DNA of 19,078 bases, from positions 1-19,078 of the forward strand of contig CAMBWG010000004.1 in the NCBI GenBank assembly GCA_945871415.1, read 5' to 3'. This DNA comes from an uncultured Desulfovibrio sp. GTDB taxonomy: Bacteria > Desulfobacterota > Desulfovibrionia > Desulfovibrionales > Desulfovibrionaceae. Below are positions 1-19,078 of this stretch, piece by piece. The translations under genes and the position numbers were made by a program. The notes beneath the pieces are model-generated. The model was not told where the DNA came from. It was given only the letters and a program-made list of their open reading frames with translations, and did no database searches. Positions within the stretch are counted from its first letter, which is position 1, and each line of letters starts with the position of its first letter.

Positions 1-99
1 CGCCGCCCGGCCCGAAGTGAGCGGAAAAACCGCGCTTTTTCCGCGAAACGACAGGTCGTATGGTTTGAAACGCAACGCGTTTCAAACTGAAAATGCTCT
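1..99 (-). repeat. Interspersed palindromic element, copy 1 (cut by window edge)
   Basis: This is the first of nine related elements. I define the forward direction as starting AGAGCATTTTCAGTTTGAAACGC-like; this copy reads backwards and ends in GCTCT at 95-99. Two hairpins are visible: GCGGAAAAA/TTTTTCCGC (20-43) and a perfect 11-bp stem GTTTGAAACGC/GCGTTTCAAAC around the loop AAC (63-87). The GC-rich distal part lies beyond the window start. It sits about 110 bp upstream of the adenylation gene, probably just after a preceding gene outside the window. Confidence 0.85.
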
Positions 100-208
100 G
101 GAGATTGATATGCGGGACAGGCGCGGGAGCATTGTCTGCAATATTCTCCGCGTGAGCGGCGGGGGACTGCGCCGCGCCGTATGAATTTTTTACCATCGCC
201 AGGTAGTC

Positions 209-1753
209 ATGCATCATTACAACCTTGGAACTCTCTGTGATGAAGCGGCGGCCCGCTGGGGGCAGAACGTTGCTCTGCGTTATGCCGACGGTCAGTACAC
301 CTATGGCCGGCTGACCGATATTGCCCGTCGTCTGGCAGCGCTGCTGATGCGGAATGGCTGTGAGCGCGGCGATGTCATTGCCATCGCTCATAACAAGCAT
401 CCTCTGTCGTATGCGCTGATGCTGGCGGCGCTGCGCCTTGGCGTTCCGTACGTGATTATCGACGCGGCATCGCCCCTGGCCCGTACAGCGAAGATCATGA
501 CTACGGCCCAACCGCGTCTGCTTTTTTATGATGACGCCCGCTATGAAGATGCGATGCGCCGTCTGGCCGAAGAGTGCGGTCTGCCCTGTCTTTTTCTTGA
601 CGAGGCGGCATTGCCGGAAAGCGACGCCGGGCTTCTGGAGGAACTGCATACCCGCGCCCGGGATGTGGACGGCTCCACTCTGGCCTATATCATGTTTACC
701 TCCGGCTCTACGGGCATGCCCAAGGGCGTGGCGGTGACGCATCAGAATATTTTGCACTTCATCCAATGGGGGGCGAGCTGTTTTGATGTGTGCGAAAAAG
801 ATATTTTCGCCAATCTCAGCCCCATGTATTTTGACAATTCCGTCTTTGATTTCTATATCGCTCTCTTTTCCGGGGCCTCCCTGGCTCCGGTGCCTCGCGA
901 GCTGCTGACCAGCCCCTATGAGCTTGTGGCGCATGTGGGAAAAATGGCCTGCACAGTCTGGTTTTCCGTGCCTTCGCTGCTCATCTATGTCATGGCCATG
1001 AAAGCCATGCAGCCGCGCTTTCTGCCGGCCCTGCGCTCCATTTCTTTTGGCGGCGAGGGCTACCCCAAGGCGGAACTGAAAAAGCTCTATGATCTTTTTT
1101 CGCCGCAGGCGCGCATCGTCAATGTCTATGGTCCAACGGAATGTACCTGCATTTGCAGCGCATACCGGCTGAGCGATGCGGATTTTACGGATCTGAAAGG
1201 CCTGCCGCCCCTGGGATGTCTGAATCAGAATTTCGATTATTTTATTGAAAGTGCGGACGGCGGCAGGGGAACGGAAGGCGAGCTTGTGCTGGTGGGGCCC
1301 AATGTGTCGGCGGGCTATTTTAATGACCCGGAGCGCACGGCGGCGGCGTTTCTGACTCTGACTGAACCCCGGCGCTTTATGAAGCGCGCCTACCGTACGG
1401 GTGATCTTGTCTGTGAAGCAGACGGGAAGCTCTATTTTCAGGGCCGCAAGGATAATCAGATTAAGCATATGGGCTACCGCATCGAGCTGGAAGAAATTGA
1501 AAGCGGTCTCATGCGGCTGCCTGGCGTAAGCCAGGCGGCGGCGGTCTATCTCCGACAGACTGAGGCCTACGGCAAAATCTTCGGCTTCGTCGCCTATGAG
1601 GGAGAGGAAGACGACAAAACTCTGTTGCATCGCCTGGGGGAAATCCTGCCCTCCTATATGATTCCGAGTCGCCTGATCCTCATGAAGGCTTTGCCCAAAA
1701 ACGCCAATGGCAAGGTAGACCGCCAGGCGCTGAAAACCTGGGCCGTCCGCTGA
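209..1753 (+). CDS. Stand-alone amino-acid adenylating enzyme (AMP-binding, DltA/NRPS A-domain type)
   Basis: A 514-residue protein of the ANL adenylate-forming superfamily, close in length to DltA. It should activate a carboxylic acid, most likely an amino acid, with ATP and transfer it to a carrier-protein thiol. Core motifs in order: phosphate loop FTSGSTGMPKG (163-173), FDNS (208-211, A4 region), VYGPTE (306-311), YRTGD (395-399), the hinge region with GRKDNQIKHMGYRIEL (412-427) and the C-terminal catalytic lysine in NANGKVDR (K502). No carrier or condensation domain is fused to it or present in the window. ATG 209 follows an AGG (201-203). Its TGA overlaps the ATG of the GtrA gene (TGATG), so the two are translationally coupled. 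The position beside sugar-nucleotide and glycosyltransferase genes suggests aminoacylation of a glycan or lipid carrier; the substrate is not assignable. It is not an acyl-CoA synthetase like the Acs further along. Confidence 0.85.
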   Translation: MHHYNLGTLCDEAAARWGQNVALRYADGQYTYGRLTDIARRLAALLMRNGCERGDVIAIAHNKHPLSYALMLAALRLGVPYVIIDAASPLARTAKIMTTAQPRLLFYDDARYEDAMRRLAEECGLPCLFLDEAALPESDAGLLEELHTRARDVDGSTLAYIMFTSGSTGMPKGVAVTHQNILHFIQWGASCFDVCEKDIFANLSPMYFDNSVFDFYIALFSGASLAPVPRELLTSPYELVAHVGKMACTVWFSVPSLLIYVMAMKAMQPRFLPALRSISFGGEGYPKAELKKLYDLFSPQARIVNVYGPTECTCICSAYRLSDADFTDLKGLPPLGCLNQNFDYFIESADGGRGTEGELVLVGPNVSAGYFNDPERTAAAFLTLTEPRRFMKRAYRTGDLVCEADGKLYFQGRKDNQIKHMGYRIELEEIESGLMRLPGVSQAAAVYLRQTEAYGKIFGFVAYEGEEDDKTLLHRLGEILPSYMIPSRLILMKALPKNANGKVDRQALKTWAVR

Positions 1754-2199
1754 TGCCGAAAATGCCCTTTCCCATGAAACAACTGCTGTACCGCCTGTCG
1801 GGGGGACGCTCCCTGCGTCAGGTTATCCGTTACGGCATTGTGGGCGTTGTCCAGAATGCCGTGGGCTACGGCATTTATCTTTTCTTCACCTGGCTGGGCG
1901 CGGACCCCAAGCTGGTCGTGAGTATAGCCTATCCGATTGGCATCCTGATTTCTTTTTTGGGCAATAAAAAATACACATTTGGCCATAAAGGCGGCATTGC
2001 AGGCTCGGGAGGGCGGTTTTTACTGGCTCAGGCCTGCAGCTGCGGCATCAATCTGGGCATGCTTGCCATTGGGGTGGACTGGCTCGGCTATCCGCATCAG
2101 CTTGTGCAGCTCGCAGCCATCTTCGTCTGTGCCGTCTTTCTGTTTCTGGCTCTCAAATTTTATGTGTTTGCGGTCCGGTCCGTGCCGGCCCAGCAATAG
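1753..2199 (+). CDS. GtrA-family membrane protein (polyprenyl-linked sugar translocation)
   Basis: A 148-residue protein with four predicted membrane helices (about 25-46, 53-71, 88-108, 114-138). It shows the typical GtrA features RYGIVGVVQN near the N-terminus, SFLGNKKYTF after helix 2 and ALKFYVF at the end of helix 4. Family members are thought to help flip polyprenyl-phosphate-linked monosaccharides across the inner membrane for periplasmic GT-C glycosyltransferases, which suits the GT-C gene downstream. ATG 1753 overlaps the preceding stop by one base. Its TAG stop (2197-2199) is partly formed by the first bases of repeat copy 2, so the native C-terminus may have been altered by that element. 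Confidence 0.85.
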   Translation: MPKMPFPMKQLLYRLSGGRSLRQVIRYGIVGVVQNAVGYGIYLFFTWLGADPKLVVSIAYPIGILISFLGNKKYTFGHKGGIAGSGGRFLLAQACSCGINLGMLAIGVDWLGYPHQLVQLAAIFVCAVFLFLALKFYVFAVRSVPAQQ

Positions 2200-2342
2200 A
2201 GCGTTTTATCTCTGAAAAAGGTGAAACGCGAGGCGGGGCACAGCGCCGTCCGATCCGAACTTGGCGGAAAAATACGTTTTTCCCATGAAACAACAGGCCG
2301 TATGGTTTGAAACGCTCAGCGTTTCAAACTGAAAATGCTCTA
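2198..2342 (-). repeat. Interspersed palindromic element, copy 2
   Basis: A complete 145-bp copy in reverse orientation filling most of the gap between the GtrA and aminotransferase genes. It begins AGAGCG inside the GtrA stop codon and ends GCTCTA, so both ends carry TA next to GAGC/GCTC. The stem GTTTGAAACGC/GCGTTTCAAAC (loop TCA) is perfect. The central A/T-rich hairpin is degraded here compared with copies 1 and 7. Confidence 0.9.
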
Positions 2343-2365
2343 GTCTATAAACCGGAGGCCGTCAC

Positions 2366-3504
2366 ATGTCTGAACATATTCCTTTCAACCGGCCGCACAT
2401 GACCGGCAAAGAACTTTATTATATTGCCGAAGCCCACTTTAACGGCAAACTGGCCGGCGACGGCCCGTATACCAGGCGCTGCCATCACTGGCTGGAAAAA
2501 CTGAGCGGATGCCGTAAGGCGCTGCTTACTCATTCCTGCACCGCGGCTCTGGAAATGCAGGCCCTGCTGCTGGATATTCAGCCCGGCGATGAAGTCATCA
2601 TGCCGTCCTATACGTTCGTATCCACAGCCAATGCCGTAGTTTTGCGCGGCGGTGTGCCCGTGTTTGTGGACATTCGCGAGGATACGCTGAATATAGATGA
2701 AAGCCTTATTGAGGAAGCCGTTACGCCGCGCACCCGCGCCATCGCGCCCGTGCATTATGCGGGCGTGGGCTGCGAGATGGACGTCATCATGGATATAGCG
2801 CAGCGCCACGGTCTCAAAGTTGTGGAGGATGCGGCGCAGGGCTTCATGTCCACCTACAAGGGACGGGCTCTGGGCAGTATCGGCCATCTGGGCGCGTACA
2901 GTTTTCATGAAACTAAAAACGTCATTTCCGGCGAGGGCGGCGCGCTGCTGGTCAATGATCCTGATCTTGTGCAGCGGGCTGAGATTATTCGGGAAAAAGG
3001 CACGGACCGCAGCCGTTTCTTCCGGGGGAAGTGGATAAATACACCTGGCAGGAGGCGGGATCTTCCTATCTGCCGGGCGAGCTCATTGCCGCTTTTTTGT
3101 GGGCGCAGCTGGAAGAAGCCGGCGAAATTACTGAAAACCGTATGGCCTGCTGGCGGCGTTATCATGAGATGCTGGAGCCTCTGGAGCGGGAAGGAGTCCT
3201 GCGCAGGCCGTCGATTCCGTCCCATTGCCGCCATAACGCGCATATGTACTATATTCTGCTTGCGCCGGACATTGACCGGCAGCCGGTGCTGAATGAGCTC
3301 AAAAAGCAGGGTATTGATGCCGTGTTTCACTATGTGCCTCTGCATTCCGCGCCTGCCGGGCGGCGTTACGGCCGCGTGCATGGCGCCATGAACCGGACCG
3401 ACAGTCTGTCGGCGCGTCTGATTCGTCTTCCTCTCTGGTATGGCATGGCGCGTGCCGCTCAGGAGAAGACTGTGGAAACGCTCCGTGCGGCACTGCACCG
3501 TTAA
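2366..3504 (+). pseudogene. wecE: WecE/RffA-type dTDP-4-keto-6-deoxyglucose aminotransferase, split by a frameshift
   Basis: DegT/DnrJ/EryC1 family PLP enzyme that strongly resembles WecE, which converts dTDP-4-keto-6-deoxyglucose to the 4-amino sugar dTDP-Fuc4N. The N-terminal part is intact to about residue 221, with GDEVIMPSYTFVSTANA (74-90), VVEDAAQG (152-159) and the PLP lysine K184 in SFHETKN. The homologous C-terminal half (DKYTWQEAGSSYLPGE onward to the stop at 3502-3504) is in the -1 frame from 3031. The switch lies at the run GGGGG (3024-3028); six Gs would restore FFRGEVDKYTW and give a product of about 379 residues, normal for the family. As read, the first frame ends at 3292 after about 85 unrelated residues (308 in total). 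ATG 2366 has a clear GGAGG (2354-2358). Causes could be a real mutation, phase variation in the G-run or a base-calling error; all else looks functional. Confidence 0.85.
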
Positions 3505-3508
3505 TCCC

Positions 3509-5248
3509 ATGACACAGAACAGAGCTTATTTTTCCGAGGCAGGTCAAAGGGGTTCCCCCGAGAACCAGCAGGACTGCTGGCTTCGCGCGCGGGGATGGGG
3601 CCTGCTGGCGGTGCTGGTCAGCACGGTGTACCCCAGAGTCCTTTCTCTGGGCGATTTCCCGTGCATGGATGAGGGCTTTTATGCGTACTGGGCCCAGTTC
3701 GTCCATCAGAGTCTGGCTCAGGGGCAGGGGCTGCCCGACACCGGGGGCTTCATGCTCTATCCCCTGCTGCTTTCCTGGCTCTGCGCTTTGCCGGGGAATA
3801 TGATCATCTGGCTGCGCCTGGCGGATATGCTGATGGCCGCCTGGGCCGGATGGCTGTTCTGCCGCCTTCTGGTGCGGGAAAGCCGGAGCGTTGAGGGGGG
3901 CGTGCTGCTGGCGCTGTTTTTTCTCTCAGCCATGAATGCGCCGGTAGTCATCGATGCCGGATTTAAAAACAGCATTTTTGCCGCATATGTTCCCCTGTTT
4001 CTGGCCGTGGAGCTGGTACGGGAGCAGGACGCGCGCAGCCCGCGCTGGTTTTTTGCGGGCGTGCTGACCGCCCTGGGCGTTTTATTGCGCGAACCTTTTG
4101 CCGTTTTTGCCGTGGCGGGAGCCGCGGCCGTCTGGGCTGGGCGCGGGCCTCAGGCGCTCTGGCGCTATGTTGCCGGCGGATGCCTTGGCGGGATGCTGGT
4201 GCTGGCTCTGGTTGGTTTCCTGCGTGGCGGCGTGGCCGAACTGATTCAGGCCTATGTTCAGGCCGGGGCCGTTTATGGAGCGGAAGCAGGGCGTACCTGG
4301 TACAATTTCACCAGATACGGAATGGAATTTCTGCTTATGTTCGGGCCTCTGCTGCTCCTGACAGCCGTCGCGGTAGTGGTTTTGTTGTATCAAATGTCCT
4401 GGGCTACGTACGGAAGGGCCTTGTTCTGGCTGATTCTGGCGCTTCTGCCTCTGCTGGAACCTCTGAGCAAACTTGGATTTGTGTACCACTTTGCGGTTGT
4501 TCTGCCGGGATGCGCGGGTCTGTGCGCCCTTGCCTGGAGTAAAATCCCGCCTCTTTTTCCCCTGCTGGAACGCCTGGGCAAATTGGGATGCGTCGTCGTT
4601 CACCGTCTTGCGGTTGCTCTGCCGGGGTGTGCAGGTAGGGGGGCCCGTGCCTGGAGCAAGATTGCGCCTGTCTGTTCTCGTCTGCGGGGGGAGCGGGGTG
4701 TAAAAGCACTTTTTTTGGCGATGTTCGCCTTCCTCGTCTTGACCGAGAGCGGACAGGCGCGGATGACGCTGGATACGCTGCGGGCTTTTCCTTCTTCCGG
4801 CTGGCCGGAGAAGTATGTTCCGAAGTCCAATACGCTGCTGGCGGGCAATGCTATTCGCGCGGTTCTTCCTCCCGGCGGAAGCCTGTGCATCAGCGGTTTC
4901 ATGTTCTTTCTTTATCCTGTGACCGGCGCGCTGCCTCCCAGCCCGGCCATGGGGGACCTGAGCCGTACCTTCATTTTTTCAGGGTATGATCCGGCCCGCT
5001 TTGAAAATACGTTGCGTAAGGATCCTCCGGATGTGCTGGTCATTGCCAAAGCTCAGGGCGAGCATTCGGCAGTTTTTACGAAAGAGTTGCAAGATGTTGT
5101 GGAAAAGAGCGGTCTGTATGTCCGCGCGGCTGAAATTCCTGTAGACGGAGAAAAAAATTACGGCTGGATCGGCTGTACTGTGTATCGCCGGGCGCTGCCT
5201 CTTCCTGCAGGGCAAACGCAGCCGCATATTGGGGAGATTGCCGGGTAG
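3509..5248 (+). CDS. GT-C-type (PMT/ArnT-like) membrane glycosyltransferase with internal duplication
   Basis: A 579-residue polytopic membrane protein. After a soluble N-terminus of about 30 residues comes a hydrophobic segment and then MDEGFYAYW, with D54-E55 in the first periplasmic loop as in PMT_2/GT39/ArnT-like GT-C enzymes that use polyprenyl-phosphate sugars. Many hydrophobic helices follow, then a soluble C-terminal domain from about residue 430. Residues 314-350 and 351-389 are a tandem duplication. ATG 3509 is chosen because it lies 4 bases after the aminotransferase stop; a start at 3440 would overlap that gene by 65 bases with no support. No Shine-Dalgarno is evident, so translation probably depends on coupling. 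If coupled, the frameshift in the upstream gene could lower its expression. The sugar and acceptor are unknown. Confidence 0.75.
   Translation: MTQNRAYFSEAGQRGSPENQQDCWLRARGWGLLAVLVSTVYPRVLSLGDFPCMDEGFYAYWAQFVHQSLAQGQGLPDTGGFMLYPLLLSWLCALPGNMIIWLRLADMLMAAWAGWLFCRLLVRESRSVEGGVLLALFFLSAMNAPVVIDAGFKNSIFAAYVPLFLAVELVREQDARSPRWFFAGVLTALGVLLREPFAVFAVAGAAAVWAGRGPQALWRYVAGGCLGGMLVLALVGFLRGGVAELIQAYVQAGAVYGAEAGRTWYNFTRYGMEFLLMFGPLLLLTAVAVVVLLYQMSWATYGRALFWLILALLPLLEPLSKLGFVYHFAVVLPGCAGLCALAWSKIPPLFPLLERLGKLGCVVVHRLAVALPGCAGRGARAWSKIAPVCSRLRGERGVKALFLAMFAFLVLTESGQARMTLDTLRAFPSSGWPEKYVPKSNTLLAGNAIRAVLPPGGSLCISGFMFFLYPVTGALPPSPAMGDLSRTFIFSGYDPARFENTLRKDPPDVLVIAKAQGEHSAVFTKELQDVVEKSGLYVRAAEIPVDGEKNYGWIGCTVYRRALPLPAGQTQPHIGEIAG
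4448..4675 (+). repeat. In-frame tandem duplication inside the GT-C gene
   Basis: Unit 1 (4448-4558, 37 codons) and unit 2 (4559-4675, 39 codons) share PLLE.L.KLG, then AV.LPGCAG, then AWSKI at matching positions. They also share DNA stretches such as CTGCTGGAAC and TTGCGGTTG. Unit 2 is two codons longer and less hydrophobic, with extra arginines. It looks like a diverged duplication of the F-x-Y-H-F...LPG membrane segment that is normally present once in GT-C proteins. Confidence 0.8.
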
Positions 5249-5272
5249 GGGCATTCCTTTGTCCATGCGCCT

Positions 5273-5412
5273 GGAGCTTTTTTGAAAAAGATGAAATGCG
5301 AGGCGGCGGCATAGCGCCGTCCGGCCAAAAGTGAGCGGAAAAGCTCGCCTTTCCCGCGAAACGACAGGCCGTATGGTTTGAAATGCGAAGCATTTCAAAC
5401 TGAAAATGCTCC
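5273..5412 (-). repeat. Interspersed palindromic element, copy 3
   Basis: A complete copy of about 140 bp in reverse orientation, bounded by GGAGC and GCTCC; the matching ends extend outwards as CTGGAGC/GCTCCAG. The main stem reads GTTTGAAATGC/GCATTTCAAAC (reading from 5379 in the + direction, loop GAA). Relative to other copies (ACGC/GCGT), both arms have changed together, which is a compensating change. It starts 24 bp after the GT-C stop codon. Confidence 0.9.
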
Positions 5413-5427
5413 AGTATCTCTTTGAAG

Positions 5428-5463
5428 GCAGAGGCCCATGCGTTAAGCATGGGCCTCTGCTTT
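5428..5463 (+). terminator. Hairpin terminator of the glycan cluster (+)
   Basis: A perfect 14-bp stem GCAGAGGCCCATGC/GCATGGGCCTCTGC (5428-5441 and 5447-5460) with loop GTTAA, followed by TTTCGTCTT. The T-run is short, but the stem is very stable and lies after the last + gene of the cluster. Confidence 0.7.
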
Positions 5464-5484
5464 CGTCTTCAGACCTGTCGAAGT

Positions 5485-5518
5485 AAAAAATGCGGGGGAA
5501 GGAACATCCTTCCCCCGC
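5485..5518 (-). terminator. Rho-independent terminator of acs (-)
   Basis: A perfect 12-bp stem GCGGGGGAAGGA/TCCTTCCCCCGC (5492-5503 and 5507-5518) with a 3-base loop. Read on the minus strand it is followed by a T-run (AAAAAA at 5485-5490 on the + strand). It lies about 170 bp after the acs stop codon, with repeat copy 4 between. A weaker GTCGGG/CCCGAC hairpin is at 5562-5589. Confidence 0.8.
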
Positions 5519-5611
5519 GAACCACTGTGGAGGTCGGCGTTGCAGGGCTCGGACGCGCGCTGTCGGGATTAAGCCGGCGCGCGCCCGACAAGAGGAGGAA
5601 GAGCGGCCTTT

Positions 5612-5689
5612 GGAACATGTTCAGTTTGAAACGCTTCGCGTTTCAAACCATACGGCCTGCCGTTTTGTCTTTTTCAAAGGCAGAGTACT

Positions 5690-5691
<2 letters not shown>
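5612..5691 (+). repeat. Interspersed palindromic element, copy 4 (internally deleted)
   Basis: An 80-bp forward-orientation copy. It keeps the first hairpin GTTTGAAACGC/GCGTTTCAAAC (loop TTC) and the distal TTTTTCAAAGGCAG end but lacks the central hairpin and the GC-rich stem. The join falls at CGTTT, a short word found on both sides of the lost segment in full copies, so the loss can be explained by deletion between direct repeats. Its last bases, read on the minus strand, form the TAG stop of acs. Confidence 0.85.
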
Positions 5692-7756
<2,065 letters not shown>

Positions 7757-8025
7757 CCTTTCTGCTCCTTCTCTGCTGAAATATGCCGGATATGGCGTGA
7801 ACATGCCGCCATTCTATCGGGGTAGCGGCTTTGCCCGTGTGCGTCAAGGACCCTTCTGTTGTTTGTGCTTTCAGTCATCGTTGTGCCTTTTTTCTTTAAT
7901 AAATTTGACGGGCTTTATAATCCTAACAATTTCATGTGAATAGCTTTTTGTGCTTTTTTTCTCAATATGCCCGTTCGGCAGGAAAAAATTTTTTTCAATG
8001 GAAACGACCGCTTCCGGAGAGTCTT
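7757..8025 (-). promoter_or_regulatory. AT-rich upstream region of acs
   Basis: About 270 bp with no gene. It is markedly more AT-rich than its surroundings, especially 7885-8000, with the A/T palindrome AAAAAATTTTTT near 7983. On the minus strand there is TTGACG at 7844-7849 but no good -10 box at 16-18 bp. An ATTATAAAG stretch near 7913-7921 is another possible -10. The acs promoter most likely lies here; the exact boxes cannot be fixed. No sigma-54 GG-N10-GC match was seen. Confidence 0.4.
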
Positions 8026-8169
8026 GGAGCATTTTCAGCTTGAAATGCCGTGCGATTCAAACCATACGTCCAGGCGTTTCGTGGAAAAAGCACGGTTTTG
8101 CGCGAAACGACTGGACGGGCGGGGCTGTCCGCCGCCTCGCGTTTTACCTTTTCAAAGGCAACACGCTCT
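8026..8169 (+). repeat. Interspersed palindromic element, copy 5 (long central palindrome)
   Basis: A 144-bp forward copy bounded by GGAGC and GCTCT. The first hairpin is partly broken (TTGAAATGC/GCGATTCAA). Instead, the centre forms a 15-bp stem with one mismatch, CGTCCAGGCGTTTCG (8067-8081) against CGAAACGACTGGACG (8103-8117), that other copies do not have. It lies between the symporter terminator and acs. Confidence 0.88.
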
Positions 8170-9920: not shown

Positions 9921-10064
9921 AGAGCACTTTCAGTTTGAAACATTTTGCGTTTCAAAACTTATGGTGTCGTTTCGCGGAAAAAGCGCGGTTTTTCCGCTCA
10001 CTTCGGGCCGGGCGGCGCCGTGTCGCCGCTTCGCGTTTCATCTTTTTCAAAGTTGGAACGCTTT
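9921..10064 (+). repeat. Interspersed palindromic element, copy 6
   Basis: A 144-bp forward copy, bounded by AGAGC and GCTTT with TA next to both ends. The central hairpin GCGGAAAAA/TTTTTCCGC is perfect and the GC-rich stem GGGCGGCG.../...CGCCGC is present. The first stem has lost one or two pairs (AAACATTTTGCGTTT). Its last bases overlap the TAA stop of the receiver-TPR gene on the minus strand. Confidence 0.9.
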
Positions 10065-11472
10065 ATTTTCTGCGGCGTCGCGACAGCTGCCACGTACAGC
10101 GGATTACGGAAAGTATGTCGTTGAAGAGATGGGTGCGGGAGACGCCGTCGTCCTGCGCGTCCGTGCCGGGCTGCGGCAGCGGGGACAGGGGTTCGATTTC
10201 CTCCAGATAAGAGGGGGGCGGGCTGTCCTGCGGCGGTCGTGACGGTGCTTCGGGAGCTGGCTGCGTGACTCCGTCGCCTTCCCGCGCTCCCGTCTCCTCG
10301 CGCGCCGCCTGACGCTCCTGCCACTGCTGGAAGGCGGCGGCTTCCCGGCGGCGTTCCTCGGCGGCCTGACGCAGGCGCTCTTCCCGCTGGCGGGCGAGCA
10401 CGTCCAGCTGACGGCGGATTTCGCTGCTCAGGGAAAGAGCTTCGTCGCCGAGTTCGCCTTTCAGATGATTTTCCAGCCGGGCAATCAGCTCGTTGCTTTC
10501 GGCGCGAATGCGCGCGGCATTCTCGTCGCCTTCGCTGTCTTCCGTGGCCGAAGCCAGGCAGGTTTGCGCCAGCTTGTCCGCAAGGGTCGTATCGTCGCTG
10601 ATGTCGTAGACGGCTGCCAGCGCCTGCGCGGCTCCTTCCACATCCCCCTGACGCAGCAGGCGCTGGGCGGCGGCGATAACGGGATTGCGGGCGCGCGGAT
10701 TTTCCTGCAGCAGGCGCATATAGGCGGAACGCGCCTTGTGCCAGCGCCGCGCCCGGGCGAAGGTGTCGGCGGCCCGGGCCAGCCATGCCCGGTAGCGCGC
10801 CTTGTCGCCCTTGCCCTTATAGGCGGCCGCGATGCCCAGTTCGGCTTCGCCCTTGATATGTTCCGCCCGCAGAGCCCGCTGAAAGGCGGCAATGGCCGTA
10901 TTCCACTGCCCGGCCTCCAGACAGCGCAGGGCGGCGTTGAAATAGTCTTCGGGCTGGCGCGCCGGTTTGAGCAGCATGGCATAGGACGCCAGGGCCTCAT
11001 TGAAGGCGCTGGCGTCGGTATTGGCCGCGGCCTTCTGCAACTGGCGCTCATGGGCGGCATAGGCGGTCAGAGAGAGGAGCTGACGGCGAAGCGTCTCCAC
11101 CGAATAGGGACGCGAAAGGAGGGCGCTGGCGCCGCAGCCGAGAGCGGCCATCTGCTGGGCTTCGTCATCGTTGGCCAGCAGCAGAAGAACCGGTTGCGAC
11201 ACCAGACGGGGATGTAGGCGGAGCATGGCGCAGAACTGCTCGCCGTCCATGTCTTCCAGCTCCTGATGGCAGACAATGACGTCGGGCGTTTCCGGCCGGG
11301 AACCGGAGGCGAGCCCTTCCAGCAGGCGCGCGGCCTCCACGCCGGAAGTCATGCTCCATCGGGTGATGGCGCCGGCCTCGCGCAGGGTTCGTTTGTCCAC
11401 CGACGCGAGCCGTTCGCTCCTGCTCAGGAGCATGACGGAAATGGGACGGGGCGCGGCCACGGGCAGCCTCAC
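10063..11472 (-). CDS. Degenerate receiver domain fused to TPR repeats
   Basis: A 469-residue probably cytoplasmic protein. Residues about 10-135 have the shape of a response-regulator receiver (VIVCHQELEDMDG, then VLLLLAND, then GCGASALLSRPYSVETL). The phospho-acceptor Asp is replaced by His69, the P of the xPxMDG motif by Glu, the beta-4 Ser/Thr by Leu and the switch Lys by Arg121, so it is a pseudo-receiver. Residues about 150-310 are alpha-helical TPR-like repeats (YFNAALRCLEAGQWNTAIAAFQRAL and similar). A charged coiled coil (about 330-400) and a proline-rich linker follow, then a basic tail ending SRRRRK. The start is GTG 11472, overlapping the previous stop as GTGA, with no Shine-Dalgarno, so it is translationally coupled. 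Role unknown; it is likely a protein-protein scaffold. Confidence 0.8.
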   Translation of the reverse strand: MRLPVAAPRPISVMLLSRSERLASVDKRTLREAGAITRWSMTSGVEAARLLEGLASGSRPETPDVIVCHQELEDMDGEQFCAMLRLHPRLVSQPVLLLLANDDEAQQMAALGCGASALLSRPYSVETLRRQLLSLTAYAAHERQLQKAAANTDASAFNEALASYAMLLKPARQPEDYFNAALRCLEAGQWNTAIAAFQRALRAEHIKGEAELGIAAAYKGKGDKARYRAWLARAADTFARARRWHKARSAYMRLLQENPRARNPVIAAAQRLLRQGDVEGAAQALAAVYDISDDTTLADKLAQTCLASATEDSEGDENAARIRAESNELIARLENHLKGELGDEALSLSSEIRRQLDVLARQREERLRQAAEERRREAAAFQQWQERQAAREETGAREGDGVTQPAPEAPSRPPQDSPPPSYLEEIEPLSPLPQPGTDAQDDGVSRTHLFNDILSVIRCTWQLSRRRRK

Positions 11473-13402: not shown

Positions 13403-13405
13403 GCT

Positions 13406-13780
13406 TTACTGCTCGCGTCCCGAGTGCCCGGAGAAGAGCGGGGCTTCTCCGTCCTCCATTTCCAGCGTCGCCACCCGATCTTCCAGCCATTCCAGGACGG
13501 CGCGGGCCGTTTCATAGTTCAGCAGTACCCGGGAATGAATATGACGGATGATGTCGCGCTGCTCGAAGCCCTCGGGCAGGTTCTCCGGCCCCAGAGAGCC
13601 GTCGGGGGAGACCAGACATTCCGTGGATTGCGGCAGGGCGTCGCTTTCATGATAGAAATTAAGCTCTATTTCTCCCTGGGGATTGATGCCGCCCCAGACA
13701 CCGTGGGCCGTATGCAGGCGGGCGTCTTTGTCGATGCTGTAGCGGTAGCGGATTTTGTTGGGATGACGGAGGGGATTCAT
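13406..13780 (-). CDS. Small DUF3467-like protein, first gene of the miaB operon
   Basis: A 124-residue soluble protein. The core has a beta-rich part (GVWGGINPQGEIELNFYHES, about residues 24-43) and ends in an alpha-helical segment (RVLLNYETARAVLEWLEDRVATLEME). This resembles the layout of DUF3467 proteins, where a beta-sheet half is followed by an S-P-x-x-A-K-x-L helix; the family assignment is tentative. ATG 13780 is chosen because AGGAG lies 5 bases upstream and a good -10/-35 pair lies just beyond (13805-13834). The longer frame to 13855 would cover that promoter. Function unknown. Confidence 0.7.
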   Translation of the reverse strand: MNPLRHPNKIRYRYSIDKDARLHTAHGVWGGINPQGEIELNFYHESDALPQSTECLVSPDGSLGPENLPEGFEQRDIIRHIHSRVLLNYETARAVLEWLEDRVATLEMEDGEAPLFSGHSGREQ

Positions 13781-13804
13781 GTGGGCTCCTGTAACATATT
13801 TTCC

Positions 13805-13834
13805 CGTATACTCGAAGCGGCGGGAATCCGGCAA
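13805..13834 (-). promoter_or_regulatory. Putative sigma-70 promoter of the miaB operon
   Basis: On the minus strand TTGCCG (13829-13834) and TATACG (13805-13810) are separated by 18 bp. Transcription would start near 13798, leaving a leader of about 18 bases with the AGGAG site. Confidence 0.5.
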
Positions 13835-13879
13835 ATGGTAAAAAAGACGCGGCATGAAGTAAAGCTTTCGCGAGCGCCC

Positions 13880-13907
13880 TTGACGCGGCCGCGGCCGTGA
13901 CTACAAT
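13880..13907 (+). promoter_or_regulatory. Putative sigma-70 promoter of the 188-residue gene
   Basis: TTGACG (13880-13885), a 16-bp spacer and TACAAT (13902-13907). Transcription would start near 13914, about 43 bases before the GTG start. It is divergent from the miaB-operon promoter, with 45 bp between the two -35 boxes. This promoter overlaps an alternative ATG start at 13897, which argues against that start. Confidence 0.65.
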
Positions 13908-13956
13908 ACTGCGCACAGAATCCGGCATTGGGACGCCGAACAGGAAGGAGACGAGC

Positions 13957-14523
13957 GTGAGCGATACCCGCATTACCAAACATGAGGTTGTGCCCTATTT
14001 TGATATGGAAGGCTTTATGGTCATGAGCCAGGAAAGCCGCCTGGGCGGCGCGACGCTGGAGCGCCTCATCAAACTGTGGGGCGAATGGCTGCCCCGGCTC
14101 GAAGTGCGGGAGATTGCCACCGGGGCCATCTCCTATCTTGCGGTCTGGCTGCCCGAGGCCGTGGAACAGCAGGTTGATGCCGCATGGGAAAAGTCACCGT
14201 CCGACGGCTGGCAGGACAACAACCTTGCCCAGTTCCTGTGCATGGCGGCCGTGCGCGAGCTCCTGCCCCAGGTGGAGGACGCGGGCTGCGCTCCCGCCCC
14301 CCGGCCCACCGAGGCCCTCAAGGCGGCGCTGGCCGAGCTGGGCCTGCATTATAAGGAAGGTGCGGCCACGCTGGACCGCCGCTTTGCCGTCGTCACCCAC
14401 TTCCCCTTCAAGGGGGGCTGTGAAATTTGCCATTTGCAGGGCCAGTGCCCCAAGGGGCAGGGCCAGAGTCAGGCCGCCAGCGTGCTTCTGCCCGGCTATG
14501 AGCGCGACGGCGGCAACGCCTGA
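13957..14523 (+). CDS. Conserved-looking protein of unknown function with a C-terminal cysteine cluster
   Basis: A 188-residue soluble protein that I do not recognise. The start is GTG 13957, with AAGGAG (13945-13950) 6 bases upstream; an in-frame ATG at 13897 falls inside the promoter. The N-terminal half is mixed alpha/beta (HEVVPYFDMEGFMVMSQES, LIKLWGEWLPRL). The end holds HFPFKGGCEICHLQGQCPKG, with three cysteines spaced CX2CX5C, suggestive of a metal site but one ligand short of a usual Fe-S or Zn set. One further cysteine lies in DAGCAPAP. It is monocistronic, ending at a repeat copy and a strong terminator. Confidence 0.75.
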   Translation: MSDTRITKHEVVPYFDMEGFMVMSQESRLGGATLERLIKLWGEWLPRLEVREIATGAISYLAVWLPEAVEQQVDAAWEKSPSDGWQDNNLAQFLCMAAVRELLPQVEDAGCAPAPRPTEALKAALAELGLHYKEGAATLDRRFAVVTHFPFKGGCEICHLQGQCPKGQGQSQAASVLLPGYERDGGNA

Positions 14524-14528
14524 TCCTT

Positions 14529-14674
14529 AGAGCATTTTCAGTTTGAAACGCTGTGCGTTTCAAATCATACGGCCTGTCGTTTCGCGGAAAAACGCGGTTT
14601 TTCCGCTGACTTCGGGCCGGGCGGCGCTGTGCCGCAACCTCGCATTTTTGCCTTTTTCAAAGGCAAGACGCTCT
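14529..14674 (+). repeat. Interspersed palindromic element, copy 7 (near consensus)
   Basis: A 146-bp forward copy bounded by AGAGC and GCTCT, 5 bases after the TGA of the preceding gene. Hairpins: GTTTGAAACGC/GCGTTTCAAA (loop TGT), GCGGAAAAA/GTTTTTCCGC and TTGCCTTT/AAAGGCAA. In the last stem the pairs differ from copy 9 (ACCTTT/AAAGGT) but pairing is kept. Confidence 0.92.
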
Positions 14675-14714
14675 GGAAAGAAATCGTTTTCGGGAGGATG
14701 TTTCCCGGACATTG

Positions 14715-14749
14715 AAAACGCCTTGCGGCAGTGTCGCAAGGCGTTTTTT
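14715..14749 (+). terminator. Bidirectional rho-independent terminator
   Basis: A perfect 10-bp stem ACGCCTTGCG/CGCAAGGCGT (14718-14727 and 14735-14744) with a 7-base loop, followed by six Ts (14744-14749) and preceded by AAAA. It ends the 188-residue gene on + and can also serve the small exported gene converging from the other side. Confidence 0.9.
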
Positions 14750-14799
14750 CACAAGACAGGGAAGGCCCGGCGGAGCGTTCCCTTTTTCGGTCATGCGTG

Positions 14800-15078
14800 C
14801 TATCTTCCCTCCATGACCAGCGTCCGCCACTGTCCGTCCGGCGTGCGAACGGACAATTCCACGGTGCGGGCGTTGCGGGTCACGTTTTCCACCAGACAGG
14901 TCTGCACCGTGTCTGTGGCATAGTCCCGAACATCAATGGTGTCTCCCCCGGACGGCAGCGCATCAGGCGTTACTTCCACGAGATCCGCTGTGGCGGCGTC
15001 GAAGCCGTCCCACGCGTACAGCATGACGGGAATCCCCAGACAGGCGGCCACGGCTGAACAGGTAAGCAGGTACTTCAT
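14800..15078 (-). CDS. Small exported protein (DUF5334-like)
   Basis: A 92-residue protein starting MKYLLTCSAVAACLGIPVM, a typical Sec signal peptide with a likely cut after LYA near residue 22. The mature part is short and beta-rich: WDGFDAATADLVEV, then repeated short strands ending DGQWRTLVMEGR. The WDG(Y/F)D opening and D-x-x-T-G-like pattern recall DUF5334 proteins; this is a memory-based, tentative match. The start at 15078 is favoured by the signal peptide, though no good Shine-Dalgarno is seen. That ATG overlaps the moaA ATG on the opposite strand (shared CATG at 15076-15079). Confidence 0.7.
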   Translation of the reverse strand: MKYLLTCSAVAACLGIPVMLYAWDGFDAATADLVEVTPDALPSGGDTIDVRDYATDTVQTCLVENVTRNARTVELSVRTPDGQWRTLVMEGR

Positions 15079-16123
15079 GGCGACATCTGTAAATCCATTC
15101 CCTTCTCTTGGCAACACCGTCTCCCTGTCCCCGCTGCATGACGCCCACGGACGTAATGTGCGCTATCTGCGCCTGTCGGTGACGGATCGCTGTAATCTGC
15201 ATTGCCTGTACTGCCGCAGCGTGGAGCAGCGCGATTTCATTCCGCATGAAAATATCCTGCGCTATGAGGAAATGGCCCGGGTCGTGCGCATTGTGCACGG
15301 CATGGGCGTGCGCAAGGTCCGGCTGACGGGAGGAGAACCCTTTGCGCGCAAGGGCTGCGACGATTTTCTGGCCATGCTGCATAGCCGTCATGATGACCTG
15401 GATCTGCGGCTGACGACCAACGCCACGCTGCTTGAGCCTCATATTCCGCTGCTGCGCCGCGTGGGCGTGAGCGTGGTCAATATCTCTCTGGACAGCTTCG
15501 ATCGGGCCACCTTCGCGCGGGTGACCGGGCACGATCTGCTGCCGTCCGTGCTGGCGGCGGTGGACGGGCTGCTGGTTGCCGGGCTGCGGGTAAAGATTAA
15601 CGCCGTGGCTCTGCGCGGCGTCAATGACGGGCAGCTGGACGATTTTGTGCACGCCGCAAAGACCTTGCCCGTGGATGTGCGCTTTATTGAATTCATGCCC
15701 ATGGGCAGCGGTACGCGCTGGGACGAGCAGCATTTCTGGCCTGCCGATCAGATCCGCGCCGATGCCGAGCGGCTTGTGCGGCTGCTGCCTGATGACGCGG
15801 GCAGCGAGACCAGCGGACCGGCCCGCATGTTCCGTATCGTGGGCGGCAAGGGACGTCTGGGCTTCATTTCGCCGTTGAGCAACCATTTTTGCGCGTCCTG
15901 CAACCGGCTGCGTCTTACAAGCGACGGCAACGTGCGCACCTGCCTTTTTGCAGACAGGGAATATGCTCTGAGGGGCATGCTGCGGACGCCCGGCCTTGAC
16001 GACGGCTGCATTGCGCGTACCATTAGCAATGCCTGCCGGCTCAAGCCCGTAGGCGCGGAATTGCTCGCCGCCCGTCAGGGCGCCGCCGTGGCCGCCAAAC
16101 ATATGGTAGGCATCGGAGGCTAA
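15077..16123 (+). CDS. moaA: GTP 3',8-cyclase MoaA (molybdenum cofactor biosynthesis)
   Basis: A 348-residue radical-SAM enzyme for the first step of molybdopterin synthesis (GTP to 3',8-cyclo-7,8-dihydro-GTP). N-terminal cluster C39, C43 and C46 in RCNLHCLYC; then KVRLTGGEP, LTTNATLL, NISLDS, VKINAVALRGVND and FIEFMPMG. The second cluster lies in NHFCASCNRLRLTSDG with the later Cys in RTCLF. The chain ends in the GG needed for activity. ATG 15077 is the start that gives a normal length; AGCAGG lies a few bases upstream. The frame stays open upstream to 14936, but those residues are antisense to the small exported gene. Followed 24 bases later by the GGDEF gene, possibly cotranscribed. Confidence 0.95.
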   Translation: MATSVNPFPSLGNTVSLSPLHDAHGRNVRYLRLSVTDRCNLHCLYCRSVEQRDFIPHENILRYEEMARVVRIVHGMGVRKVRLTGGEPFARKGCDDFLAMLHSRHDDLDLRLTTNATLLEPHIPLLRRVGVSVVNISLDSFDRATFARVTGHDLLPSVLAAVDGLLVAGLRVKINAVALRGVNDGQLDDFVHAAKTLPVDVRFIEFMPMGSGTRWDEQHFWPADQIRADAERLVRLLPDDAGSETSGPARMFRIVGGKGRLGFISPLSNHFCASCNRLRLTSDGNVRTCLFADREYALRGMLRTPGLDDGCIARTISNACRLKPVGAELLAARQGAAVAAKHMVGIGG

Positions 16124-16147
16124 CTTTTTTCTCTTTCTGGAGCGGTC

Positions 16148-17728
16148 ATGCCGGGTCCAGCGGCTGTTGATTCTTCTCCTGCAAAACCCCGGAAGATGGG
16201 AGTCTACTGGTACTGCTTTCTCCTGAGCCTGCCGGTCTTTCTTCTTGTGGGCGCAGCCTTTGGCCTGCTTGTCAACGGCCTGCACCGGCTGGATTCGGCC
16301 GCTCTGCGCATCAGTGAAGATTACCTTCCCGACTATCAGGCGCGCCATCCCCTGCAGAATCGTGTGCAGGTCCTGCGACGCGCCGTTCTCAGCGTCCGGC
16401 TTTCGGATAATATGGATTTATGCCGCAAGGCGCTGGCGGATGCGCGTCAGCAGCTTGACGGAACTTTTGTGGACAGCACGCTTTCCAGCTCGGAAACGAC
16501 CGCGCTGCGGGGGCTTCTGGACGAACTGGAGCGCGCCAAGCGCACGGCCAGCCGGCACAAGGCCGAGCTGGCCTTTGTCGTTGCCCGTCTTGAGCGGCGG
16601 GTGAACCGTCTGGCCGTTGTTTCGGGCAGGGTGTTCACCCTTCCCGGGATTCTGTCGTCCAGTCCCTATGATGCACCGGACCCGGATACGGAAAAAGAAC
16701 ATCTCCGGCAGGCTCTGGTCAGTCTTCAGGCTCCTCTGCTCTACTGCCGGGAGTCCTCGCTGAAAAAGACCAATATCTGCCAGGACCTGACGCGGAATAT
16801 CGAATCGCTGGAGCTTGTCTGGCAGCGCCATCATCAGGCGCAGGTGGCTGTCTATAATCTGAGCGACGCCATAGATTTTCGTCTGCGCGACTGGTTTTCC
16901 CGCTTTGAGACCGCCAACAGCCTTGCCATCAGAAGATCCATGGAAACCATGGAAACCGAGCGCATGCACATGGAGCTGGTCATCAAGATCGCCATTGTGG
17001 GCATATCGCTCTCCTCGCTGCTCTGCTTTCTGATTTTTATGCGTAAGGTTATCTTCCCTATATCTCTTGCGTCGCAGCAGCTGCGGCGTCTGGAGGCCAG
17101 CGGCGACTGCGAAAGCATTCCTCCGAGTAAAATTCGTGAACTGGACGCCCTTTTCGGCATGCTGCCCCGTCTGAAGAATCTTATTGCCGGCATGAAGGCG
17201 CATTCCCGTAATCTGGCGGAAGAGTGCAGCGAATTCCGGCAGATGAGTTTTATGGATGAGCTCTGCGGCGTGCCTAACCGACGCAGCCTGGATGCGGCGC
17301 TGGCCGAGGTGGCGCAGGAGCGCGCGCTGGCCGTTTTTCTTCTGGATGTGGACAATTTCAAGGCCTATAATGATACGCTGGGCCATCAGAAGGGGGATGA
17401 GGCCCTGCGGCTGGTGGCGCAGGAAGGCGCGCGCGTCGTGGCCGGGAGCGGCCGCTTTTTCCGTTACGGCGGCGAGGAATTCTGTGTGCTTCTTCTGGAT
17501 GACGACGTCTATCGCGCTGTGGAAATTGCCGAGGATATCCGCCGGAGCGTAAGGGCCCTGGCCATTTCTCACCCCGGCAACCCCCCGGGGGTGCTGACCG
17601 TGAGCATCGGCGTGGCCGTGCGTGAAGCCGGTGAAGCGCTTTCCGGCGATGATCTTCTGCATCAGGCGGACACTTCGCTGTATCAGGCCAAGGACGCGGG
17701 ACGCGACTGCGTGCGTGTCCGTCTTTAG
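16148..17728 (+). CDS. Membrane-anchored diguanylate cyclase (GGDEF)
   Basis: A 526-residue inner-membrane protein. Transmembrane helix 1 at about 19-42, a periplasmic helical sensor region of about 235 residues, transmembrane helix 2 at about 281-300, a short HAMP-like/coiled linker, then a GGDEF domain from about 365. The active site is RYGGEEF (GGEEF at 441-445), with the metal-binding DVDNFKAYNDTLGH and ALRLVAQ helix upstream, so it should make c-di-GMP. The product-inhibition I-site RxxD expected just before the active site is absent (AGSGRFF instead). ATG 16148 has GGAG (16139-16142) 5 bases upstream. Its TAG stop is formed by the first bases of repeat copy 8. The sensed signal is unknown. 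Confidence 0.93.
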   Translation: MPGPAAVDSSPAKPRKMGVYWYCFLLSLPVFLLVGAAFGLLVNGLHRLDSAALRISEDYLPDYQARHPLQNRVQVLRRAVLSVRLSDNMDLCRKALADARQQLDGTFVDSTLSSSETTALRGLLDELERAKRTASRHKAELAFVVARLERRVNRLAVVSGRVFTLPGILSSSPYDAPDPDTEKEHLRQALVSLQAPLLYCRESSLKKTNICQDLTRNIESLELVWQRHHQAQVAVYNLSDAIDFRLRDWFSRFETANSLAIRRSMETMETERMHMELVIKIAIVGISLSSLLCFLIFMRKVIFPISLASQQLRRLEASGDCESIPPSKIRELDALFGMLPRLKNLIAGMKAHSRNLAEECSEFRQMSFMDELCGVPNRRSLDAALAEVAQERALAVFLLDVDNFKAYNDTLGHQKGDEALRLVAQEGARVVAGSGRFFRYGGEEFCVLLLDDDVYRAVEIAEDIRRSVRALAISHPGNPPGVLTVSIGVAVREAGEALSGDDLLHQADTSLYQAKDAGRDCVRVRL

Positions 17729-17868
17729 AGCATTTTAGTTTGAAACGCTGTGCGTTTCAAAGCATACGGCCTGTCGTTTCGCGGAAAAAGCCTGTTTTTC
17801 CGCTCACCTTGGGCCGGGCGGCGCTCTGCCGCCGCCTCGCGTTTGCCCTTTTCAAGGACAAAACGCCT
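17727..17868 (+). repeat. Interspersed palindromic element, copy 8
   Basis: A 142-bp forward copy whose AGAGC lies within the TAG stop of the diguanylate cyclase gene; the far end is GCCTGG. The stem GTTTGAAACGC/GCGTTTCAAA (loop TGT) and the GC-rich GGGCGGCG.../...GCCGCC stem are intact. The last stem reads GCGTTTG.../...CAAAACGC, again with changed but mostly paired bases. Confidence 0.9.
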
Positions 17869-17904
17869 GGGAGGGGAACCGCTCAGGGATTGTTGATTTC
17901 AGGG

Positions 17905-17943
17905 AAAAGCCTTCTGTCCGGAGTCCGGTGGGGAAGGCTTTTT
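17905..17943 (+). terminator. Rho-independent terminator after the GGDEF gene
   Basis: Arms AAAAGCCTTC (17905-17914) and GAAGGCTTTT (17933-17942) with an inner TCCGGAGTCCGG segment, ending in a T-run. It lies 36 bp after repeat copy 8. Confidence 0.8.
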
Positions 17944-17987
17944 GTTGAGATTTTCGTATTTTTTTGTATGTTCTTTTTCTTTATTTG

Positions 17988-18003
17988 TGGAACAATATTT
18001 GCA
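17988..18003 (+). promoter_or_regulatory. Sigma-54 (RpoN) type -24/-12 promoter
   Basis: TGGAAC-N5-TTGCA at 17988-18003, with GG (17989-17990) and GC (18001-18002) exactly 10 bases apart, as in the TGGCAC-N5-TTGCA consensus (one difference). It sits in the most AT-rich part of the window (about 17941-18017). Transcription would start near 18013-18014, giving a leader of about 83 bases before the 200-residue gene. It implies control by an enhancer-binding protein, often used for flagellar genes. Confidence 0.7.
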
Positions 18004-18096
18004 TATTTTTTATAAATTTTGCGGAGCGGAAAAAACAGCCGCCCGTCTAAAGCAGAAAGAGTGCCGCGCGGCGTTGCCGGGGGGTAGGGAGGAATC

Positions 18097-18699
18097 ATGA
18101 TAGTTATCGACGGTCGCACCTGCGACAAGTCTGTTTCCGACTTCGCGAATCTGGAAGAAATCCTGAAGATGATCCTGAATTCCGAGGAAATGAAGGAGCG
18201 TGTCATTACCGATGTTCTGGTAAACGGCGAAGCCTTTTCGGAGATTTATCCGCATCAGGCGGAAGATATGGACAGCGCTTCTCTTTCGTCCGTGGAGGTG
18301 CGTTCGGTGCCTGCCGGTCAGATGGCCCTGTCCATTTCCGCGGAGATGGAAAAGGTTGCCAGCATGATGGCCGGAGCCTCCAGAGAAGTCGCCCGGCTGT
18401 TCCGTGAAGCCGCGGACAGCGAGGCGCTGGATCTTTTCCAGCGTCTGCTGGATGTGACGAGCGATTTTCTCAACATGATTGACATGCTGTGCAGCGACTA
18501 TGCTCCGCAGGTTCCCGAGGGATATAAGGCCAAGACGGAAAAGCTTTCCGAAATGCTTTCTGAAATGACCGACGTGCTCGGCAACGAGGACTGGATTCTG
18601 CTGGCCGACATGCTGGAATACGACTTCCAGCCCCTGTGCGAAGAATGGCGGGAGATCTGCCGCACGCTGCATGCGGAACTGGCCGAGGCCGCGAAGTAG
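18097..18699 (+). CDS. Protein of unknown function, first gene of a possible flagellar-linked pair
   Basis: A 200-residue acidic soluble protein that I do not recognise. The N-terminal 80 residues (MIVIDGRTCDKSVSDFANLE, then VLVNGEAFSEIYPH) look like a small beta-grasp or mixed alpha/beta unit. Residues about 85-200 are long amphipathic helices (EMEKVASMMAGASREVARLF, LFQRLLDVTSDFLNMIDML). ATG 18097 has a strong GGGAGG (18087-18092) 4 bases upstream. It is driven by the sigma-54-type promoter at 17988 and followed 10 bases later by a FliT/FlgN-like gene whose ribosome site overlaps its stop. Confidence 0.8.
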   Translation: MIVIDGRTCDKSVSDFANLEEILKMILNSEEMKERVITDVLVNGEAFSEIYPHQAEDMDSASLSSVEVRSVPAGQMALSISAEMEKVASMMAGASREVARLFREAADSEALDLFQRLLDVTSDFLNMIDMLCSDYAPQVPEGYKAKTEKLSEMLSEMTDVLGNEDWILLADMLEYDFQPLCEEWREICRTLHAELAEAAK

Positions 18700-18709
18700 G
18701 GAGGTTGCC

Positions 18710-19030
18710 ATGAATCAGGCACTGGAATTGCTGGATCGCGCTCTTGATACTGCCCGGCGCGAAATGCGCGCCCTGGCTGCCAGAGATTACGAACTTGCCG
18801 CTGAACTGCACGCCGATCGGGCGCAGCTGATGCAGGATGCCTGGAACCTGCGCACGGCCGTGCCTGTGGAGCTCTATCGGCATAAGCTGAATGAACTTTC
18901 CGAGCTGCAAAAGAGCTTGATGCGGACCGCGCGCGACGCCCGTGATATTGTGCGGGCCAGCCTGCAGCATACGCATCGCCAGCAGAAGCGTCTCGGGGCC
19001 TATCAGAGGTGCCTGCGGATGGCGTTTTAG
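18710..19030 (+). CDS. Small coiled-coil protein, FliT/FlgN-like
   Basis: A 106-residue all-helical protein, rich in Arg/Leu/Glu heptads (LLDRALDTARREMRALAARD, then HKLNELSELQKSLMRTARDA). Length and layout (two long helices, an R-x-x-L-M-Q centre, basic tail) resemble flagellar export chaperones FliT/FlgN, but there is no diagnostic motif. ATG 18710 has GGGAGG (18699-18704) 5 bases upstream, overlapping the stop of the previous gene. The TAG stop (19028-19030) is formed with the first bases of repeat copy 9. Confidence 0.75.
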   Translation: MNQALELLDRALDTARREMRALAARDYELAAELHADRAQLMQDAWNLRTAVPVELYRHKLNELSELQKSLMRTARDARDIVRASLQHTHRQQKRLGAYQRCLRMAF

Positions 19031-19078
19031 AGCGTTTCACCTTTGAAAAAGGTGAAACGCGAGGCGGCGGCACAGCGC
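19029..19078 (-). repeat. Interspersed palindromic element, copy 9 (cut by window edge)
   Basis: The first 50 bp of a reverse copy, starting AGAGCG inside the stop codon of the FliT/FlgN-like gene. It shows the distal hairpin in its best form: GCGTTTCACCTTT (19032-19044) against AAAGGTGAAACGC (19048-19060), 13 perfect pairs, followed by GAGGCGGCGGCACAGCGC-type sequence. Confidence 0.88.

Follow-up and report, generated by a model that had tools for sequence, protein, structure and literature searches.

Nine copies of a repeat in one Desulfovibrio contig

The stretch of DNA analysed here (the window, 19,078 nucleotides) is the entire contig C4 (CAMBWG010000004.1) of G000, a draft genome of an uncultured gut Desulfovibrio sp. 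(assembly GCA_945871415.1; 2.56 Mb in 435 contigs, 79% complete), and carries nine copies of a repeat of about 145 bp between its genes, which is most probably a miniature inverted-repeat transposable element (MITE) of the IS630 type. From 44 full copies we built a profile with a consensus of 145 positions, and with it all nine copies listed in an earlier note on this DNA were recovered (E-values 8.3e-12 to 1.2e-43). With redrawn ends they total about 1.07 kb or 5.6% of the window, as had been estimated (5-6%), and they do occur in both orientations, with copies 1, 2, 3 and 9 on the minus and copies 4 to 8 on the plus strand. The AGAGC and GCTCT ends described before had to be shortened to a GAGC...GCTC core, as empty sites show the outer A and T to be part of a duplicated 2-bp target, and instead of the single palindrome proposed the predicted folds have short terminal repeats plus four hairpins (HP1 to HP4). 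A density of about one copy per 2 kb applies to the window (one per 2.1 kb) but not to the sample of G000 described below, which is sparser (one per 3.4 kb).

Copies 1 (1..98, minus strand; 108 bits, 7.8e-32; GCTC at 95-98) and 9 (19030..19078, minus; 43 bits, 8.3e-12) are truncated by the contig ends to model positions 1-99 and 97-145, respectively, and copy 9 makes the TAG stop (19028-19030) of the open reading frame (ORF) ending at 19030. The full-length copy 2 (2199..2340, minus; 133 bits) is flanked by a TA duplication (2197-2198 and 2341-2342), supplies the TAG stop (2197-2199) of a GtrA-domain gene (1753-2199) and is absent from its site in genome G024. Copy 3 (5274..5411, minus; 128 bits) has TG/CA flanks and a partly diverged right end, and copy 4 (5613..5690, plus; 47 bits) is a 78-bp form with an internal deletion. 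The right junction of the latter is the TAG stop (5692-5690) of an acetyl-CoA synthetase gene on the minus strand (5690-7804); as read from the sequence, this stop consists of the duplicated TA and the terminal G of the element, and in the sister genome G021, where the site is empty, the gene stops with TAA at the identical codon. Copies 5 (8027..8168; 115 bits; TG/TG flanks), 6 (9922..10063; 137 bits; TA/TA) and 7 (14530..14673; 146 bits; TA/TG) are all full length and on the plus strand, copy 7 being near the consensus. The G021 gap matching copy 5 holds another copy, oriented the other way round, copy 6 is also present at the matching site in G021 and copy 7 is missing from its matching site there. 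At the right junction of copy 6 lies the TAA stop (10065-10063) of the gene 10063-11472 (minus strand), the G of the element being changed at this place, and copy 8 (17728..17867, plus; 133 bits), full length with a diverged right end, makes the TAG stop (17726-17728) of the gene 16148-17728. Altogether five of the nine copies have such a stop-codon junction.

Abundance and insertion sites

The G000 sample comprised 780,332 bases in 61 of its 435 contigs, with the three longest trimmed to 20 kb, and contained 231 copies, which make up 3.4% of the bases and are split 113 to 118 between the two strands. By a strict rule 114 of them are full length, and two-part short forms like copy 4 occur five more times. 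Extrapolation to the assembly gives about 750 copies (about 757); a search of the genome listed 670 first-look candidates, of which 10 were scored. In G021 118 copies were found in 318,720 bases (4.4%), a density that may be overestimated as the contigs were chosen partly for carrying matches. A copy lies at most 60 bases away from 24 of the 119 true contig ends in the G000 sample, so the assembly tends to break at the element.

Model-based searches as suggested in the earlier note revealed many further copies in G000 and its relatives, and within the collections searched the element is neither a named repeat nor restricted to this stretch. A DNA query matched 27 of 79 genomes of the genus and none of 24 genomes of other genera, and G000, G021, G098, G065, G092, G093, G095 and G097 have hundreds of first-look candidates each. 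With a covariance model full-length relatives were found in G024, G033, G007, G012, G019, G064 and others; in a 150-genome sample of the order it matched 15 genomes, all of the same genus (15 of 27 same-genus genomes), and none of the rest, which is weak evidence of absence given the strict filters and the 21 first-look candidates scored per genome. A motif scan of named genomes gave only Desulfovibrionaceae among the at least 80 matches listed, one of them labelled Mailhella. Diverged subfamilies predicted to form the same four hairpins occur across the genus Desulfovibrio, and outside the genus none was found in the samples searched.

No named family matched in the Rfam, E. coli, phage and plasmid collections, in agreement with the earlier note, which had recognised no known repeat. 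Copy 7 has no match among phage and plasmid records, and identity with ERIC or BIME by sequence was rejected, as a search of 20,395 E. coli records with this copy gave nothing at E <= 1e-5. A known Rfam 15 RNA was rejected as well, since none reaches its gathering score in the window; the region of copy 7 gave three sub-threshold matches, the best being PyrR with 29.3 bits (cut-off 54). The core motif of the element also lies near the end of a 6.4-kb contig from a viral collection (L384, 6045-6080), which could be prophage or host DNA.

Both flanks of near-full-length copies were sought in the available DNA of the other species (G000 versus G021). For 115 G000 copies this left 97 without a counterpart in hand, 10 occupied sites, 7 empty and 1 intermediate; for 67 G021 copies the numbers are 53, 8, 5 and 1, giving 12 empty versus 18 occupied sites overall. 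A 2-bp duplication is recognisable at five of the 12 empty sites (TA/TA twice, one of them with a one-base difference beside the duplication, TA/TG, CA/CA and AA/AA), and these five delimit the element as GAGC...GCTC and show its target to be mostly, not strictly, TA. Among copies with readable GAGC and GCTC, TA/TA is the commonest flank pair (12 of 58 in G000, 14 of 45 in G021) and any identical pair is found in 18 of 58 and 17 of 45; copies whose ends have changed (52 and 24) and one each near a contig end are left out of these counts. At L091:8798-8941, L075:4868-5011 and window 8027-8168 both species are occupied in opposite orientations, which could be due to repeated insertion in the gap or to inversion in place.

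Genes were called with a program written for this analysis, for which eight window genes with Pfam support served as seed (78.6% coding), replacing an earlier gene model that was dropped because it had chosen antisense frames; the caller misses the frameshifted gene 2366-3504 of the window, and genes that a copy has disrupted could escape it. The location between genes, already claimed for the nine copies, holds in both genomes: no midpoint of a full-length copy falls inside a called gene (0 of 121 in G000, 0 of 75 in G021) and the overlap with a gene is at most 10% for 119 of 121 and 74 of 75. Per kb of intergenic DNA, excluding gaps below 10 bases or above 1.5 kb, G000 has 1.22 copies in convergent, 1.03 in tandem and 0.61 in divergent gaps, and G021 has 2.21, 1.43 and 0.22. 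Within tandem gaps the element lies opposite to the genes more often than in the same orientation (48 versus 22, p = 0.003; 29 versus 15, p = 0.05), two counts that are not independent as some sites are common to both species.

In 22 of 111 G000 copies (8.3% expected, p = 1e-4) and in 19 of 70 G021 copies (7.9% expected, p = 1e-6) a stop codon ends with the first G of the element, the expectation being taken from free TA dinucleotides and 17 and 9 ends without GAGC being excluded; no other offset between element and stop codon within 60 bases was seen more than twice. As a G follows the duplicated TA at both ends of the element, a stop codon hit at its TA remains a stop codon. Judged from these junctions, the element can insert within a stop codon and leave the protein unchanged.

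Candidate transposon and hairpin fold

The earlier note had pointed to an autonomous parent with the same ends as a possible check, and by searching DDE_3 transposases in the 79 genomes of the genus an IS630-family element with one end matching the right end of the MITE was found in close relatives. In G098 it has an intact ORF of 322 amino acids (DDE_3 at 1.6e-33 plus HTH domains) and in G021 its frame is broken; in these two genomes, at different sites, it is TA-flanked with the ends GAGCGTTTCA(C/A)CTTTGAAATG and GAGCAATTCAACTTTGA(G/A)ATGT. The terminal inverted repeats of the MITE are GAGCATTTTCAGTTTGAAA and GAGCGTTTCACCTTTGAAA, with perfect pairing limited to GAGC and imperfect pairing in the remainder. 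The G098 end GAGCGTTTCACCTTTGAAA equals the right end of the MITE consensus at 16 of 16 positions (19 of 19 bases by eye), the G021 end matches at 15 of 16, and in G002 the left end of the MITE agrees with the IS630 end of the same genome at 14 of 16. As relatives of the G098 transposase at E <= 1e-20 occur in 11 of the 79 genomes and not in G000, the mobilising enzyme is supported by the ends but would be rare or lost in many carriers.

An IS630-like gene is present in G000 on contig C172 and at the corresponding position in both G021 and G098 (L160, 964-1743; L385, L386, L387), but it appears to stop before the third catalytic residue and is probably inactive. In G098 the intact IS630 element abuts a MITE copy with a shared TA (L146, about 1398-2529; same place in L388), as if one element had inserted at the duplicated target of the other. 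The loci L038, L046 and L039 were inspected for insertion sequence (IS) ends and none were seen; they are ordinary genes beside distant MITE-like copies.

The predicted folds of the consensus and its relatives are serial hairpins, four in most subfamilies, and in several of the seven subfamilies or relatives folded the terminal repeats close the structure; the fold of copy 7 has z = -6.8 and none of 200 shuffles was equally stable. Twenty-two copies from 13 genomes were aligned by sequence only. In this alignment 88.3% of the cells pair and double changes are seen in 32 of 47 pairs; covariation scores 0.389, compared to 0.141 ± 0.011 in shuffles, and slid pairings do not exceed 0.108. The rows were picked among full-length matches to a model of the same structure, which biases the score towards it, and a G064-type row was omitted for its different HP2. 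In copies of G017, G064 and G070 HP2 is replaced by a different hairpin. Within G000 and G021 (179 copies) HP2 has 408 singly changed cells versus 10 compensated and 13 uncompensated double changes. HP1 and HP4 have more compensated doubles than chance would give for doubles of any kind (53 versus 27 and 99 versus 59, respectively); a few pairs account for most of them, which is what differences between subfamilies in these hairpins would produce.

In 13 of the 179 copies one arm of the central hairpin has been rewritten as the complement of the other, resulting in a longer, near-perfect hairpin without the internal loop; mostly the 3' arm follows the 5' arm, and at least once it is the reverse. 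Copy 5 of the window is one example: its HP2 loop has been turned into a near-perfect palindrome, in which the private variant of its own 5' arm is mirrored. Outside HP2 the 13 copies share no more variants than random sets (0.064 versus 0.083 ± 0.019), and a private variant is mirrored not only in copy 5 but also in L015:40 and L080:2914, so the events look largely separate; two copies (both in L102) have a common tract and may represent one event. The pattern matches the signature reported for template switching, where rewriting of an arm perfects or restores hairpins and gives apparent compensatory changes (PMC8794818), although RNA genes are described there and dispersed copies of one repeat here. 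Since template switching can yield compensated changes without selection, covariation alone is no proof of an RNA function: it tells that the hairpins persist in the source copies, not why.

Interpretation and comparison with known repeats

Taking these data together, we regard the element as a non-autonomous IS630-type MITE family of the genus Desulfovibrio that would be moved in trans by an IS630-family transposase, and we put the probability of this at about 0.83. Within the collections and literature searched the family is new, and it has an unusual conserved multi-hairpin anatomy. Its copies are short, non-coding, dispersed and numerous, they have terminal inverted repeats and a 2-bp TA duplication when empty and filled sites are compared (5 of 12), and one end is common with an autonomous IS630-family element. 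A MITE-like nature and spread in trans had been suggested by the earlier note and fit the target duplications, the empty sites and the transposon of the close relatives.

Several observations weigh against this reading. At seven of the 12 empty sites a duplication cannot be made out clearly (the flanks are diverged, CG as target faces TA/TG, or, at L080:2914, a remnant of about 26 bases is left and the site is not truly empty), the flank pairs are non-identical in most copies with readable ends (40 of 58 and 28 of 45), and lineage-specific copies are not significantly closer to the consensus than shared ones (12 versus 18, p = 0.24). The left end of the MITE matches the IS ends of G098 and G021 at just 11-12 of 16 positions, the G024 MITE ends match the IS630 ends of that genome at just 8-10 of 16, and no interior sequence common to MITE and IS was seen by inspection without a formal alignment. 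G000, at 79% completeness, has no IS630 relative at the threshold given above and no autonomous partner, which is usual in the same genome, although not required, for an IS630-type MITE; 12 further carriers (G017, G064-G067, G070, G088, G092-G095 and G097) have neither a DDE_3 match nor such a relative. Mobilisation itself is deduced from sequence, no transposition having been observed.

According to the model that we propose, an IS630-family transposase would have bound the ends of the element and cut and pasted it into TA sites. Copies hitting coding DNA would have been purged by selection, and insertions between genes, especially in the TA of stop codons, would have been retained, in the latter case because the element begins with G at both ends and leaves TAG. 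Once inserted, copies appear to decay, and selection on their base pairs has left little trace; the four hairpins are presumably maintained in the source copies of each subfamily, and part of the hairpin compensation may derive from template switching, by which one arm is copied onto the other. The mobilising transposon would now be rare or lost in many carriers.

The fold itself could instead be the selected function, which we consider unlikely: the element, acting as structured RNA or as single-stranded DNA, would then have spread by transposition but been retained because it affects neighbouring transcripts, for example as a site at 3' ends where mRNAs are stabilised or processed. The four hairpins kept across sequence-divergent subfamilies, the covariation score far above the shuffles, the compensated doubles above chance in HP1 and HP4, the lower density of divergent gaps, compared with convergent and tandem ones, in both species and the preference for lying opposite to the genes in tandem gaps would agree with such a role, but pairs are lost freely within genomes (408 single versus 10 compensated changes in HP2), the 13 rewritten copies have lost the internal loop, three genomes have another HP2, sites are gained or lost between sister species and the alignment rows were chosen by a structured model with the G064-type row left out. 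A related idea, tentative and rather improbable as well but less so, is that the heritable identity of the family is the four-hairpin fold and not the sequence, with the fold being needed for spread and template switching supplying compensated variants. Subfamilies indeed replace most of the sequence, even HP2, and mostly hold the length (145-148) and the order of the four hairpins, and the fold might serve spread if hairpin or cruciform ends are recognised by the transposase or by a DNA-bending protein of the host. If this were true, template-switch mutation would have left a natural record in the hundreds of copies that are decaying.

Other transposases have to be considered as movers, too. 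An IS427/IS5-type transposase (DUF4096) is also able to sit at TA, and such elements occur in 44 of the 79 genus genomes with TA flanks where ends were identified (10 of 30 loci); we nevertheless hold it for very improbable, as their ends (GATAGTGTC..., GG(A/G)GCTGTTTCTA or GAAGTCATTTCAT) agree with those of the MITE at 4-9 of 16 positions (24 comparisons, six of ten elements), G000 has no match, and none with GAGCRTTTYA ends is found among the loci with identified ends, the other 20 loci having given no ends. There is hardly any chance that the copies are REP/BIME-like elements moved by a RAYT-type Y1 transposase: high copy number, hairpins and intergenic location would agree, but no Y1_Tnp match was found in G000 (79% complete; 5 of 14 control genomes positive), the element has 2-bp duplications and terminal inverted repeats, and it measures 145 bp compared to the 20-40 bp reported for REP (PMC3733652).

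Two features of the window lie apart from the copies of the element. The DegT/DnrJ/EryC1 aminotransferase frame at 2366-3504 is frameshifted into overlapping ORFs (2366-3292 and 3031-3504), which may be an assembly error. The ORF 3440-5248, without a Pfam match, contains a local duplication at 4433-4684 (77 nucleotides, 74% identical, 117 from start to start) and an additional 46-nucleotide pair 111 apart.

Neisseria, the host of the Correia/NEMIS repeats, belongs to another phylum than Desulfovibrio. These repeats are likewise bacterial MITEs, reported with more than 120 copies, inverted repeats and the ability to sit in transcripts (PMC10969869, PMC2649163); their reported functions involve RNase III, IHF and promoters, and our element was compared with them by description and not by sequence. 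Similar in the proposed mode of spread is RUP from Streptococcus pneumoniae, a repeat of 107 bp with IS630-Spn1 as proposed mover (PMC3049150), which is also small, has IS630-like ends, a target duplication and a predicted RNA fold, and for which mobilisation in trans was inferred as well. RUP is reported with 110 copies in its genome versus about 750 extrapolated here (PMC3049150) and with 27.5% G+C versus 54-56% in typical Desulfovibrio copies, and is set apart by description and not by a comparison of sequences. ERIC is similar in size (127 bp, PMC3049150) and copy number (711 reported in Photorhabdus luminescens, PMC10969869), and its insertion at 3' ends of genes has been reported; it differs in being reported from E. 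coli K-12 (PMC10969869), whereas copy 7 matches no E. coli record. A literature search for a Desulfovibrio MITE gave none named in the top titles and beginnings of abstracts, its scope not extending to most subscription journals and ISfinder; a transposon survey among the papers listed (PMC7325037) has a single mention of the genus.

In summary, a very dense MITE family with an ERIC-like copy number is added to a genus without one in the literature searched, and the element helps to explain why the draft genome is broken up into hundreds of contigs. The junctions suggest a simple rule for harmless insertion, in which TA plus G gives TAG. Furthermore, the copies offer a natural data set on template switching and warn against taking covariation in a repeat as proof of RNA function.

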